A stretch of DNA of 6,303 nucleotides from an uncultured Synergistia bacterium (GTDB lineage Bacteria > Eremiobacterota > SpSt-956 > JAKJGF01): the NCBI GenBank assembly GCA_937888925.1, contig CALARM010000606.1, forward strand, positions 1-6,303, given 5' to 3'. Under the pieces are notes generated by a model that was not told where the DNA came from, made no database searches, and was given only the letters and a program-made list of their open reading frames with translations. The position numbers were made by a program, and so were the translations under genes. Positions 466-6,303 of the stretch are shown here, piece after piece (position 1 is the first letter of the stretch; each line of letters opens with the position of its first letter).

Positions 466-494
466 TTGACTGGTTCCTATAAAAAGTTTAAAAT
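466..494 (+). promoter_or_regulatory. Predicted sigma70-type promoter for the Nif11 precursor
   Basis: The -35 box TTGACT at 466-471 and the -10 box TAAAAT at 489-494 are separated by exactly 17 bases. Transcription would start near 501, giving a leader of only about 28 bases before the ATG at 529. The first T of the -35 box is also the TTG that would start the longest version of this reading frame, which argues that the longer version is not made. Confidence 0.6.
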
Positions 495-511
495 ATGCTT
501 ATTCTATATTG

Positions 512-522
512 AAAGGGGAAGG
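512..522 (+). promoter_or_regulatory. Ribosome binding site that fixes the Nif11 start
   Basis: The purine run AAAGGGGAAGG ends six bases before the ATG at 529. No comparable site precedes the TTG at 466, so the protein is 90 residues, not 111. Confidence 0.7.
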
Positions 523-528
523 ATATAT

Positions 529-801
529 ATGTCACTTGAAAGCGCAAAAGCATTTATTGAAAAAATGCAAAAAAATGATGATTTTGCACAATCTTTCTTT
601 GCATGCTCCGAGCCTGAAGCCAGAAAAGCTTTTATTAAAGAAAAGGGGTATGATTTTACAAAGGAGGAACTTGACGAAGTAAGAGTTGGTTTTGATGAGG
701 TAGCAGGCGGTAAGTGTTGCGGACACTCGTGTGAGCATGATATTGAGCCATCATGTTCCAATGAGGCTACGTGTCGCGATAGTCCGTGTTTGGATAGATG
801 A
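529..801 (+). CDS. Nif11-type leader / Cys-rich RiPP precursor peptide
   Basis: This 90-residue protein has the layout of Nif11-like leader precursors, a family of peptides that are post-translationally modified and then cut after a double glycine. Residues 1-59 form a helical, acidic leader (MSLESAKAFIEKMQKNDDFAQ..., then FIKEKGYDFTKEELDEV). VAGG at 58-61 is the predicted cleavage site. The remaining 29 residues (62-90) form the core, with cysteines at 63, 64, 68, 76, 82 and 87, histidines at 66 and 70, and Ser/Thr directly before three of the cysteines (67, 75, 81). Cys26 is the only cysteine in the leader. The start is set by a strong ribosome binding site; the gene has its own promoter and a hairpin right after the stop. 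No LanM, radical SAM enzyme, YcaO or peptidase-transporter is in the window, so the modification (lanthionine, thioether, azole or only disulfides) is unknown. A metal-binding tail is an alternative role for the core. Family call is firm; product type is not. Confidence 0.85.
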   Translation: MSLESAKAFIEKMQKNDDFAQSFFACSEPEARKAFIKEKGYDFTKEELDEVRVGFDEVAGGKCCGHSCEHDIEPSCSNEATCRDSPCLDR

Positions 802-825
802 CCTCCCTGTTGGGAGGGAGCTTTT
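802..825 (+). terminator. Probable terminator of the Nif11 gene
   Basis: CCTCCC at 802-807 and GGGAGG at 812-817 form a perfect 6-bp GC-rich stem with a TGTT loop, starting on the base after the stop codon. A short T run (822-825) follows after four bases. The T tract is weak, so termination may be partial. Confidence 0.45.
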
Positions 826-2441: not shown

Positions 2442-3095
2442 ATGAAGTTAAATAATTATGGTTACAGTATATTAGAAATGGCTCTGGCTATTTCGCTTTT
2501 CAGTATATTTATGGCAGCAGTTTTTTCGGTTTTCAGCTATGGATTTAAAAGCTGGAAATTGATTGAAACAAAAAGTGATTCACAGCTTCAGGCGGAAGTT
2601 GCCCTTGCACGGATAGTAAGTGATTTAAAATCCAGTGATATATCATCTGTAGTAACAGGAGACGAATATGTAGCTTTTGAGACTGCCTGGTCTGATCCGA
2701 ACGAGACTGTTACTTTTAAAAAGCTGGGAGGTTATCCACTCTGGCAGGGATATATTCTGTATTATACATTCCCCAGAGATTCCGACGCTGTAAATAAAAA
2801 ATTATTAAGGAAATATATAAATCACAGTGCTTCCGGTCTGGCAACCAGAATGACAGATATAGATATGTATCTTACGGATAATTCTGTCAATGATGAAAAT
2901 TTAAGGACAGTTGCCAGGAATATTTATGATCTTCAGATTACGACAGGAACCAATAGATTTATAGTAGATATTATTTTGAAAACAGAAAAAAAATTCTCTG
3001 AAAAAAGACTGGCCTATGAAAAAGATTTTTCAGATAATATTGCTGTAGATATTGTAACATTAAAAGCTTCTATAAGCCCAAGAAATACACCTTAG
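2442..3095 (+). CDS. Type IV pilin-like / pseudopilin protein (GspJ/PilW-like)
   Basis: The 217-residue protein begins with a short class III leader, MKLNNYG, followed by YSILEMALAISLFSIFMAAVFSVFSYG. The prepilin peptidase would cut after Gly7, leaving an N-terminal Tyr and the conserved Glu at mature position 5 (Glu12). The 20-odd residue hydrophobic helix anchors the subunit in the inner membrane before assembly. LQAEVALARIVSDLKSSD after the helix is the usual start of the globular domain in GspJ/PilW-type minor pseudopilins, and the length fits that group (about 200). There are no cysteines. The C-terminus VDIVTLKASISPRNTP resembles the terminal strand of such proteins. It is 20 bases ahead of the next gene and almost certainly cotranscribed with it. 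The exact system (type II secretion, type IV pilus, competence) cannot be decided because no ATPase, platform or secretin gene is present here. A run of eight A at 2986-2993 lies in frame near the 3' end. Confidence 0.85.
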   Translation: MKLNNYGYSILEMALAISLFSIFMAAVFSVFSYGFKSWKLIETKSDSQLQAEVALARIVSDLKSSDISSVVTGDEYVAFETAWSDPNETVTFKKLGGYPLWQGYILYYTFPRDSDAVNKKLLRKYINHSASGLATRMTDIDMYLTDNSVNDENLRTVARNIYDLQITTGTNRFIVDIILKTEKKFSEKRLAYEKDFSDNIAVDIVTLKASISPRNTP

Positions 3096-3115: not shown

Positions 3116-5134
3116 ATGTACGGCAATGATAGGGGTATGGCCCTTATAACCATTCTTTTGATGCTTATTATTCTTGTTATGTTAATGTCAGCGCTGGTAG
3201 CGATGAATACGAACAATATTTTTTATGCTTCCACTTATCTTAATAAGATTTCTGCCTCTGCTGCAGCTGAATCCGGTATCGCTTATGCCATATATGCCCT
3301 TCAGAAAGATCCTTCTTTTAACAGTGATATTCAGGAACATACGGAATGCGGTAATTTTACAGTAAATTTCTGTCGCACAGGCTATAAACCGGAATATTTT
3401 TCATATAATAATCTTACAAATGGCTCTCCCGTTGCAGGAGGATCTTTTGACGGAGGAGACGTGCTTCCTTATTCCGTAGATCTCGTTGTTACAGGTAATT
3501 CAGGCCCTGCAACAAAAAGGATAAGAGTAACGCTGACAAGATCTATTACGAATGATGCCGGAAGAATCAGCGGATGGGCCGATGTGGACGGAGGTATATT
3601 CAGGGTTTCCAGAGTGATTACCCCTCAGGATCCTTCCGGACAGGGTTCTTTTCATTCTAATTCTTCCGGAAACCCTTTGCTTGATCCTCCTCTTGCAATA
3701 AAAGTAGACCCGAACTGTCAGGTTATAACTTCTGACGGAGTAATAAGTGCAGTAGGAAATATTTCTCTTAACAGCACTGATACTACTCTGAAGGAAGGTT
3801 CTCTTCCTAAACAGATTACTTCCATAGATATTGACGGAATAATATCTACGGCAGAGAATAAGATAGCCCATTCTCCGGGCGGTGATTACAGGGTTAAAGG
3901 AAGTCACGGTAATTATAAACTCTACCATAACGGAAGTCCGGTAGATATAACAGGTATTACTGTAAATGATAAAGGCGCTATTGTTATTAATAAAGATGTA
4001 TTTTTTGAAGGTGATATGAAAGTTTCCTTTGAGGTTTCTGAAGAGGATCTTCCGGATGCAGGTATTGTACTTGAGAAAAAGAATGACAGATCTCCTGTTG
4101 TATATATTAAAAGTGATGGTGCTAAAGAAGACAGCTTGAATATCATAGGTAAAATAACAGGAAATGGTTCTGTCTGTACATCGGGAAAGACAAAGTTTAT
4201 TATGGAAACAGATATTGTGTCAGATCTCGACCCCGGTGTGGCTCTCCTCAGTAAAGATGATGTAAATATACATCTTCCGGCAACTCATGTGAGACCTGCA
4301 GAATTGAATATGACCGGTCTTGTTTATACATATGGTAATATTAATGCTGATTTTTATAAGAATGTATCTCCATCTGATAATCCTGTTTCTGTTTCGGCAT
4401 GGCCTGCCGACTGGGAAGATATTGTATGCGGTGTATCGCAGGAAGTCTATGCTCTTCCTGTAGATAATTTCGATATATATGATACAGTAGATCCGCCTTC
4501 CATTCCAGGCTTTTATTGGAACTTTACAGGAGGTAATCATAATGATCCCTTTGATGCTGATGATCCATGTAATGGAACTATTACGGAAAATCCTGACGGT
4601 ACATTTACATTCAACGGCGGAGCAAGTAATGGTAATGACGCATCTATCAGGTATTTTTCCGGCCCTCATGGTTCAGGGAAACGTGGCGTTCCTTTTGTTA
4701 TCGGAGACGGGAATGAAGTTACCCTTACGGAACATGGATTTGAACCTCCTCTTACGATACGTGATTCTTCTCTCATTTCGGATTTTGGAAGTGAAGAGAA
4801 TCTTTATAAATCTTTATACGGTACCCTTAAAAAATATGATCTGAAAAATAATTCCAGATCAAAGCTGGTTTATACCGTTCCTTGTGACGGAAAGCGTTAT
4901 GCTCCCAATATAAATATTACGGGTGCTCTTGTAATAACAGATCCGAATAATCTTGACGGAAGCGGAGCTTTTAATCCGCAGAGTGGAAATATGACCGTTA
5001 AACTTAGAGATCCTGATTTTGAAAATAAAGGAAATCTGAGTCTTATTTACTCCAGTAATTATGAAAAACTTCTCGGAAATTCTTCTATATCGGGTAAACT
5101 CCGTGTTACAAGCTGGGAAGAACTTAAACTGTAA
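3116..5134 (+). CDS. Large PilX/GspK-like minor pilin protein with long beta-rich region
   Basis: The 672-residue protein starts with MYGNDRG, a likely prepilin peptidase site after Gly7, followed by the helix MALITILLMLIILVMLMSALVAMNT. Mature position 5 is Thr rather than Glu, as in GspK-type tip subunits that lack this residue. YASTYLNKISASAAAESGIAYAIYALQKD (about 38-66) is the AAESG..YA..L signature of PilX N-terminal and GspK-like proteins. The long remainder is polar, rich in Asn, Asp, Gly and Ser, with many short predicted strands (for example NMTGLVYTYGNINADF and NITGALVITDPNN), seven scattered cysteines and no enzyme motif I know. It ends LRVTSWEELKL. Size is well above PilX (about 200) and GspK (about 300), so the extra domain probably projects from a pilus or pseudopilus tip. 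It is cotranscribed with the upstream pseudopilin. Adhesion or substrate contact is inference only. Confidence 0.75.
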   Translation: MYGNDRGMALITILLMLIILVMLMSALVAMNTNNIFYASTYLNKISASAAAESGIAYAIYALQKDPSFNSDIQEHTECGNFTVNFCRTGYKPEYFSYNNLTNGSPVAGGSFDGGDVLPYSVDLVVTGNSGPATKRIRVTLTRSITNDAGRISGWADVDGGIFRVSRVITPQDPSGQGSFHSNSSGNPLLDPPLAIKVDPNCQVITSDGVISAVGNISLNSTDTTLKEGSLPKQITSIDIDGIISTAENKIAHSPGGDYRVKGSHGNYKLYHNGSPVDITGITVNDKGAIVINKDVFFEGDMKVSFEVSEEDLPDAGIVLEKKNDRSPVVYIKSDGAKEDSLNIIGKITGNGSVCTSGKTKFIMETDIVSDLDPGVALLSKDDVNIHLPATHVRPAELNMTGLVYTYGNINADFYKNVSPSDNPVSVSAWPADWEDIVCGVSQEVYALPVDNFDIYDTVDPPSIPGFYWNFTGGNHNDPFDADDPCNGTITENPDGTFTFNGGASNGNDASIRYFSGPHGSGKRGVPFVIGDGNEVTLTEHGFEPPLTIRDSSLISDFGSEENLYKSLYGTLKKYDLKNNSRSKLVYTVPCDGKRYAPNINITGALVITDPNNLDGSGAFNPQSGNMTVKLRDPDFENKGNLSLIYSSNYEKLLGNSSISGKLRVTSWEELKL

Positions 5135-5302: not shown

Positions 5303-6303
5303 TCATTTTATCCCTTTATCTTCATCATCATATGAGAAATCAGAATATAGTTTCTTCACACATTCAGGACAGATACCGTGAGAAAAGCGAGCCTCCGTAT
5401 GTCTGGTAACATAGGCTTCTACCTGTTCCCAGTAGCCCGTATCGTTTCTGATCTTTTTACAACTGGCACAGATTGGTATAAAACCTTTTAATGTTTTTAT
5501 CTCTGCTATGGCTTTCTTCAGTTCCTGAATGGTTTTTTCACGTTCTGCTTCGGCTTTTTTTCTGTCAGTAATATCTATCATTACCGCCAGAAAATATCTT
5601 TCCCCCTGGCTTTCTATTATGTCACCTGAAATCAATCCTTCACGGATACGGCCGTCTTTTGTTTTCAGTTTCGTCTCGAATTCACGGATACTTCTATGTT
5701 CTACAATCATCTGTATCATTTGTTCCAGTTCCTCTGCATCTGCAAATAGCTTCAGTTCTTTACTGGTTTTACCTGTGAGTTCTTCTTTTGAATATCCCAG
5801 GGTGTTCAGAAAGGCATCATTGATGTCAACCAGTGTCCTGTCTATGGCTCTTGTCACCGACATAAGTGCCGGGTTCATTCTGAAGAGTTTATCGAACTTC
5901 TGCAGAGCATCCTGTTCCTTTGTGAGATCTTTCGATATGCTGAACATACAATTTACGCCGCTCCATTTCCCGAACCATATACGTGTTTCCACTGGTATTA
6001 TCGATCCGCTTTTATTTGCGAGAGGAAGGGGACAGGTATTGCGTTTGCCACGGAGCATGTCTGACACTATTATTACTGCTTCATCTCTGGATGATGGCGG
6101 ATGCATTTCAATTATATGCATCGTCCTGAGTTCGTCCAGGCTGTAGCCGAGTTTCTGTGATGCTGCACTGTTTGCGTAGACAATCTGTCCTTCCGTATTA
6201 CTGACAAAAATCATATCTCCGATGGTTTCAAAGAAGGTACGGTAGTTTTCTTCACTTTCTACCAGCATGGTTTCTGTTCGTTTTCTTTCAAGTGCATTGG
6301 CAA
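5303..6303 (-). CDS. Multi-PAS signalling protein with C-terminal two-CxxC module (5' end outside window)
   Basis: The frame is open to the edge of the window, and the upstream residues ANALERKRTET read as an inter-domain helix, so the Met at 6268 is internal and the start lies beyond 6303. Counting from that Met: PAS domain 1 at about 5-117 (ENYRTFFETIGDMIFVSNTEGQIVYAN...GYSLDEL), PAS domain 2 at about 125-237 (MSVTRAIDRTLVDINDAFLNTLGYSKEEL, ending VMIDITDRKKAE), a coiled coil at about 236-260, then LKGFIPICASCKKIRND..GYWEQVEAYVTRH...FSHGICPECVKKLY. The last part holds Cys267/Cys270 and Cys300/Cys303, a layout suited to a metal site. I know this short module from the C-termini of PAS proteins and response regulators in several phyla; its role is not established as far as I know. 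No histidine kinase, GGDEF, EAL or HTH domain follows, so the output is unclear. The gene is convergent with the pilin operon. Confidence 0.85.
   Translation of the reverse strand, partial: ANALERKRTETMLVESEENYRTFFETIGDMIFVSNTEGQIVYANSAASQKLGYSLDELRTMHIIEMHPPSSRDEAVIIVSDMLRGKRNTCPLPLANKSGSIIPVETRIWFGKWSGVNCMFSISKDLTKEQDALQKFDKLFRMNPALMSVTRAIDRTLVDINDAFLNTLGYSKEELTGKTSKELKLFADAEELEQMIQMIVEHRSIREFETKLKTKDGRIREGLISGDIIESQGERYFLAVMIDITDRKKAEAEREKTIQELKKAIAEIKTLKGFIPICASCKKIRNDTGYWEQVEAYVTRHTEARFSHGICPECVKKLYSDFSYDDEDKGIK

Follow-up and report, generated by a model that had tools for sequence, protein, structure and literature searches.

The precursor gene and its window

The window, meaning the whole stretch of 6,303 nucleotides that was analysed, carries a short open reading frame at positions 529 to 801 which, on strong evidence, encodes a Nif11-leader RiPP precursor with a Gly-Gly site. 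The features of the locus, all on the forward strand, are listed below.

466..494, +: sigma-70-like promoter match TTGACT-17-TAAAAT (10/12 matches), a kind of match found in the window at background frequency
511..522, +: Shine-Dalgarno-like GAAAGGGGAAGG, separated from the ATG by 6 nt, read from the sequence
529..801, +: Nif11-leader RiPP precursor gene, 90 aa plus stop, from PF07862, TIGR03798 and homologue searches
529..711, +: leader, residues 1-61, ending in VAGG; PF07862 at residues 1-48 and four helices predicted by AlphaFold2
706..711, +: inferred Gly-Gly cleavage site, residues 60-61; 28 of the 31 homologues with CCG have GG here, the rest AG, AG and GV
712..798, +: core peptide of 29 residues with 6 Cys and 6 Asp/Glu, the hypervariable tail being the part after E69, from homologue comparison
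715..735, +: core module C63-C64-G65-H-S-C68-E69; CCG is shared by 25 of the 27 closest sequences and the Glu by all 31 homologues with CCG
802..817, +: weak 6-bp hairpin CCTCCC-TGTT-GGGAGG directly after the stop, with CTTTTG a few bases on

The predicted product matched PF07862 over residues 1-48 in a Pfam profile search (E 1.8e-15; 57.4 bits, cut-off 23.8) and TIGR03798 in an NCBIfam profile search (56.7 bits, cut-off 32.3). Both matches are far beyond chance and both exceed the curated cut-off, which confirms the Nif11-type RiPP precursor that an earlier note had proposed from the sequence. The VAGG site named there ends at residue 61. The cysteines at residues 63, 64, 68, 76, 82 and 87 give the pattern CC-x3-C-x7-C-x5-C-x4-C, with Ser/Thr-Cys dipeptides at 67-68, 75-76 and 81-82 and His at 66 and 70; the spacing, the three dipeptides and the two His are all as that note described them. 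Its wider description, a Cys-rich core behind a likely Gly-Gly cleavage site and a product that was not recognised, was likewise supported.

An AlphaFold2 model of the precursor, made from an alignment of 27 sequences, contained helices at residues 3-15, 17-24, 29-38 and 45-54. Block mean pLDDT was 83-88 over leader residues 1-50 and the core was unstructured (pLDDT about 41-46), a combination of helical leader and unstructured core that is expected of a leader-core precursor. The nearest solved chain by sequence profile was 9zn4, a Nif11 domain protein (E 0.0067), and a PDB fold search with the model was uninformative (best E 2.9).

The gene had also been said to possess its own promoter and hairpin, which is plausible. 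Both elements are present, but the window held 23 promoter-like matches against 19.6 +/- 3.9 in shuffles, which is background level, and the hairpin stretch at 802-817 folded no better than shuffled sequence (z -0.94; 40 of 200 shuffles folded at least as well) and was absent from the seven terminator-like sites of the window.

The claim that the window holds no modifying enzyme or exporter stood after a Pfam and NCBIfam scan, in which neither was found among the five other main frames. They comprise one putative cyclase (PF04199), one pilin-like and one PAS-PAS protein, a protein of 672 aa whose start weakly resembles GspK, and the end of a membrane-like protein that matched no family. Searching all six frames of the window with the family profile revealed no second precursor, and Rfam gave no match in the window at gathering scores. 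The term orphan, applied to the precursor in the earlier note, is a description of the window only.

Two of the neighbouring frames, those of the pilin-like protein (2442-3095) and the 672-aa protein (3116-5134), adjoin one another. When the 672-aa protein was compared with 5.8 billion proteins and 7,993 candidates were scored, there were 11 proteins among the matches listed, one of them identical and one, at 35% identity, named Candidatus Eremiobacteraeota, which hints weakly at the host. A search of 78 genomes from one phylum, run with no positive control, gave no match to this protein. The two frames perhaps encode a lineage-specific surface or secretion pair. The PAS-PAS protein (5303-6301) runs off the window, has a terminal C-x2-C ... 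C-x2-C stretch (CASCKK ... CPECVKK) and contains no Pfam kinase domain in its visible part.

Conservation of the core start among homologues

A single-protein search yielded a set of five proteins, the precursor included, and a search with their alignment yielded 73 homologues. Right after the leader, all of the 27 closest sequences but P0025 and P0026 have CCG (25 of 27). From the 73, 31 were picked for CCG after the leader; in this selection the two cysteines and the glycine are fixed by choice, and the glutamate was not chosen for. A glutamate nevertheless lies five residues after the second Cys in every one of the 31, and on a tree of their leaders it required zero parsimony changes. On the same tree the residue after the Gly changed 21 times, the Thr position nine times, the third Cys five times and the residue after the Glu 18 times. 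The weight of the 31 of 31 is limited by the relatedness of the sequences, and the variable residues on both sides of the Glu indicate that time for change has existed.

The other positions of the module were held less strictly. Among the 31 CCG-bearing homologues the third Cys was kept in 26, the Thr in 22 and either Thr or Ser in 24, the remaining seven having Ile, Asn, Leu, Ala or Arg at that position; 25 have an acidic residue two positions past the module Glu. The tail is freer. At least one further Cys occurs there in 30 of the 31, and the tail cysteines vary in number and spacing, so that 13 cores have four cysteines and 14 have five, and single sequences have three, six, seven or nine. 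The six-cysteine core, which the earlier note had offered as a pattern, is thus private to the window peptide (1 of 31), and the conserved unit is instead CCG-x3-E.

Seven presumed paralogues, taken as the several precursors of one genome, were compared in 21 pairs. Identity was 70% in the leaders, 82% in the seven-residue module and 23% in the tails. Such a contrast of leader and tail is typical of sets of precursors that share a single enzyme, except that the core start is here nearly fixed. A core start kept so strictly, followed by a free tail, would make the modification site predictable from sequence.

Six of the 31 (P0028-P0032 and P0047) carry the module as KCCG-x2-CE behind remoter leaders. 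P0033 carries it as HCG-Y-T-C-E, and there a second, almost complete module follows in tandem (WCGKDCESDGHCGYTCES), which looks like a duplication of the core unit.

Homologues that keep the domain and lack both the Gly-Gly and the cysteines had been named in the earlier note as evidence that would speak against a RiPP precursor. They amounted to two of the 73 (P0059 and P0063) and to none of the 27 closest sequences. P0063 is a distant homologue. P0059 departs from the family sequence early and looks broken, its leader leaving that sequence after about 26 residues, and P0009 is an intact copy; P0059 is probably a broken copy near intact P0009.

A like module in an archaeal genome

No close relatives were found in species genomes when the precursor was used in a single-protein search. 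An alignment search of species genomes recovered 29 Nif11 loci, one of which, contig L010 of a Methanomicrobiales MAG (G001), contains the module. A wider survey was made with a family profile (A3) in seven genome sets, each a sample or the whole of a group, those of 246 and 232 genomes overlapping; the sets comprised 246, 80, 398, 297, 232, 240 and 382 genomes, with matches in 2, 1, 13, 6, 3, 14 and 88 genomes, respectively. Loci were taken from every listed match in the first six sets and from 30 of the many in the set of 382. Across all loci, 147 distinct stop-to-stop frames matched the profile, and [CH]CG-x3-E was present in eight of these, all in G001, and in none of the other 139 Nif11-like frames. 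CG-x3-E is therefore not a general Nif11 trait. Viral contigs gave no match by precursor protein or exact motif, and phages gave none to the precursor. A plasmid search returned a single match, a weak one to the leader, from Prosthecochloris; the core there is without cysteine.

A second genome (G116) from the order of G001 was found to encode several Nif11 precursors at one locus (L105), some with DCxxxCHNYW-like core ends; a C39-peptidase transporter is present there and the CG-x3-E module is absent.

The archaeal MAG gave 12 Nif11 matches, eight of them with GHCG-x2-C-E; because the eight are close kin they count as one case. Compared with the window family the archaeal module has His in place of the first Cys and lies behind a more distant leader. 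It links bacterial and methanogen precursors by core rather than by leader, and may have come to both groups by descent, transfer or convergence. The contigs of a single MAG may stem from different organisms; the neighbouring frames on L010 were judged archaeal-looking.

Six of the module precursors lie together on L010, preceded by two radical SAM/SPASM proteins (492 and 494 aa) and a flavin-oxidase-like protein. The best family for both radical SAM proteins was TIGR04064 (373 and 381 bits, E 1.5e-111 and 9.4e-114), below its equivalog cut-off of 518.7, and the second was NF047865, the PapB ranthipeptide maturase, also below its cut-off (340 bits). A TIGR04064 match below the cut-off is not specific, since at E 0.001 nearly all controls match (13 of 14, compared with 24 of 25 genomes); matches over the cut-off were found in five of the genomes and in none of the controls. 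The nearest solved chain by sequence to the 492-aa protein was 5wgg, which we take to be the SCIFF maturase CteB.

On contig L102 one precursor with the like module is followed by a 367-aa frame without family, a YcaO protein, a short HlyD-like protein and two NHLM transporter subunits. The subunits scored over the TIGR03796 and TIGR03797 cut-offs, one of them with a C39 peptidase, and the HlyD-like protein scored below its own. The YcaO protein matched PF02624 (E 1.5e-47) and exceeded the TIGR00702 cut-off; among specific models its best was NF040716, a non-RiPP model (239 bits, cut-off 700), and it reached 40.6 bits with SagD (cut-off 219). Contig L103 (8.5 kb) carries one precursor, with no recognisable RiPP gene among its frames and no match in TIGR04064 and C39-peptidase searches. 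By analogy with this genome, where one precursor stands alone on L103 and others lie beside radical SAM or YcaO genes, a maturase acting in trans is plausible for the window precursor.

Proposed maturation and related systems

We tentatively propose, at a probability of roughly 0.42, that a radical SAM enzyme acting in trans would link a core Cys to Glu69 in a ranthipeptide-type thioether, and that Gly-Gly cleavage and export would follow. The helical leader (residues 1-61) would recruit the maturation enzymes; a radical SAM/SPASM maturase resembling NlpM or PapB would join the thiol of C64 (X4) or C63 (X5) to a side-chain carbon of Glu69; and a C39-peptidase ABC transporter would cut after the Gly-Gly and export the peptide. 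A fixed module with tails that differ from copy to copy suggests that one trans-acting enzyme set may build a constant ring on many peptides with differing tails. The product would perhaps be a competitive or signalling peptide. Enzyme, bond, cleavage, export and role in the window organism are what we infer here, with the chemistry taken from the distant archaeal neighbours.

According to excerpts of PMC9413430, PapB links Cys with either Asp or Glu, tolerates in vitro any Cys-Xn-Asp spacing in the range n = 0-6, and favours X3 where a choice exists. Cys64-X4-Glu69 and Cys63-X5-Glu69 both fall within this range, and for that reason a Cys-Glu thioether is favoured. The window core holds no forward Cys-X3-Asp/Glu. 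Several points speak against this model: the main frames of the window include no maturase, the archaeal radical SAM proteins score below the cut-offs, the spacing is other than X3, the archaeal module has His in place of the first Cys and a more distant leader, P0025 and P0026 lack CCG, a YcaO gene lies beside one archaeal precursor, and the window family has a short leader, with Glu at -12 in the window precursor. The conserved Glu could equally serve in metal binding or enzyme recognition instead.

The main rival to the Cys-Glu thioether is an azole made by a YcaO cyclodehydratase, which would form azolines or azoles at the CC pair, and perhaps at later Thr, Ser or Cys (TOMM-type), with the Glu used for recognition only. 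CC-G is a chemically suitable site for YcaO azole formation, and on L102 an archaeal HCG-x2-C-E precursor is followed by the 367-aa frame, a YcaO gene and NHLM export genes; Nif11-type precursors beside TOMM genes also appear in the accessible part of Haft 2010 (PMC2887384). This chemistry leaves unexplained why the Glu is kept in all 31 when the third Cys is kept in 26 and the Thr in 22. The L102 YcaO scores best with a non-RiPP model and weakly for SagD, and six of the eight archaeal precursors stand with radical SAM genes instead. We consider azole formation unlikely. Somewhat less probable still is a peptide that stays unmodified, a disulfide-bonded or metal-binding Cys-rich product with a Nif11 leader, such as a double-glycine bacteriocin or metal carrier. 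The further tail Cys in 30 of 31 homologues agrees with this, and His and acidic residues could bind metal; yet tail cysteines that vary in number and spacing are unlike a fixed metal site, and RiPP enzymes accompany the like module in the archaeon.

Lanthionine formation, in which LanM would dehydrate Ser or Thr and the cysteines would add as in prochlorosins, with their Nif11 leaders and scattered precursor genes, appears improbable. The three Ser/Thr-Cys dipeptides of the window precursor would suit it, and Nif11 precursors that share one promiscuous LanM, some of them isolated genes, are known from the portion of PMC10783134 at hand. The module Thr/Ser is kept in 24 of the 31 CCG-bearing homologues, against 31 of 31 for the Glu, which argues against it, although Ser/Thr elsewhere in the tail could still be partners. 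A DUF4135 (LanM) search of the archaeal genome was without match, which shows little, as the same search matched none of its controls. The least probable reading, and a very unlikely one, is a relic: the precursor would once have belonged to a cluster, have lost its maturation genes and now be without function. This would account for a window whose five other main frames include no RiPP gene, and the broken-looking P0059 presumably comes from the same genome as intact P0009. Against a relic, the reading frame, Gly-Gly and module of the window precursor are all intact, and in the archaeon, which has the enzymes elsewhere in its genome, one precursor sits on a contig where none was seen.

The form of the leader bears on the export step proposed together with the Cys-Glu thioether. 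Because of the Gly-Gly, cleavage by a C39 peptidase is likely, as judged from sequence. Sixty residues precede the Gly-Gly in 23 of the 25 closest CCG-bearing sequences, whereas 66 is the most frequent number (15 of 40) among the remoter homologues, and the leader of the CCG-x3-E family is without the common L-S-D-E-E-L-like stretch. The window precursor has V at -4, F at -7 and Glu at -12. For the peptidase LahT, most changes of Leu -12 blocked cleavage, and so did charged residues at -4 or -7, according to extracts of PMC6363468. Given the Glu at -12 and the short leader, there are two options: a cognate peptidase that differs, or a shifted register.

The window family resembles the Nif11-derived peptides (N11P, TIGR03798/PF07862) of PMC2887384, as far as its excerpted text describes them, in leader domain, Gly-Gly end, Cys-rich variable core and many copies. 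It differs in a leader about six residues shorter, in lacking the L-S-D-E-E-L-like stretch and in CCG-x3-E right after the Gly-Gly, where excerpts of the same paper describe the similarity of the Nif11 family as ending. The leader family is already known; what looks new here, to judge from the homologue comparison, is a subfamily of Nif11 RiPPs in which the Cys-Glu module of the core hardly varies and the tails are free, and this combination may represent a class of peptide that has yet to be characterised. No literature on a CCG-x3-E core module was found by title or start of abstract, a route on which motifs elude keywords and subscription journals are mostly outside coverage, and keywords likewise found none on Eremiobacterota with Nif11. 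A high proportion of novel RiPP clusters in marine Eremiobacterota is stated in part of PMC11834409. More speculatively, and with rather less confidence than we place in the thioether, CG-x3-E might mark an undescribed RiPP class common to uncultured bacteria of one lineage and to an archaeal methanogen, in which one constant Cys-Glu ring, built by a radical SAM enzyme where the core begins, would be the scaffold and the tail, freely varied from gene to gene, the display, the bacterial leader having lost the usual C39 recognition stretch. If true, this would add a natural scaffold-plus-display peptide system.

Among other known systems, Nif11-type precursors mix with several maturase kinds in the work of Haft and co-workers (excerpts of PMC2887384 and PMC3023750). 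The NlpM systems (TIGR04064), named in the latter in the text at hand, have below-cut-off relatives beside the like module in the archaeon, and a Nif11 frame lies within 1.5 kb in seven of the eight best TIGR04064 loci, these coming from genomes picked for Nif11. The NlpM-associated precursors of Firmicutes and Prosthecochloris are without CG-x3-E, unlike the window family. One of the latter, on Prosthecochloris plasmid pPAES01, typed conjugative, adjoins nlpM (nif11-like peptide radical SAM maturase; L099, 8001-9751) and has neither a Gly-Gly at the leader end nor a core cysteine. PapA/PapB ranthipeptides (partial text of PMC9413430) are alike in a core rich in Cys and Asp/Glu, and the PapB model was second-best for the archaeal enzymes; the window precursor has another leader and Cys-X4/X5-Glu instead of repeated Cys-X3-Asp, with a bond that is predicted. 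Prochlorosins and synechococsins share the Nif11 leader, many precursors per genome and isolated precursor genes. Their cores are described in the available sections of PMC10783134 as non-conserved, with some conserved Cys, whereas the first core residues of the window family are nearly fixed.

All three kinds of NHLM export component (TIGR03794/03796/03797) lie beside one archaeal like-core precursor and none was found in the window. Adjoining this archaeal export locus, at 9673-11979 of L102, is a gene for a very Cys-rich protein of 768 aa with no Pfam or NCBIfam match.
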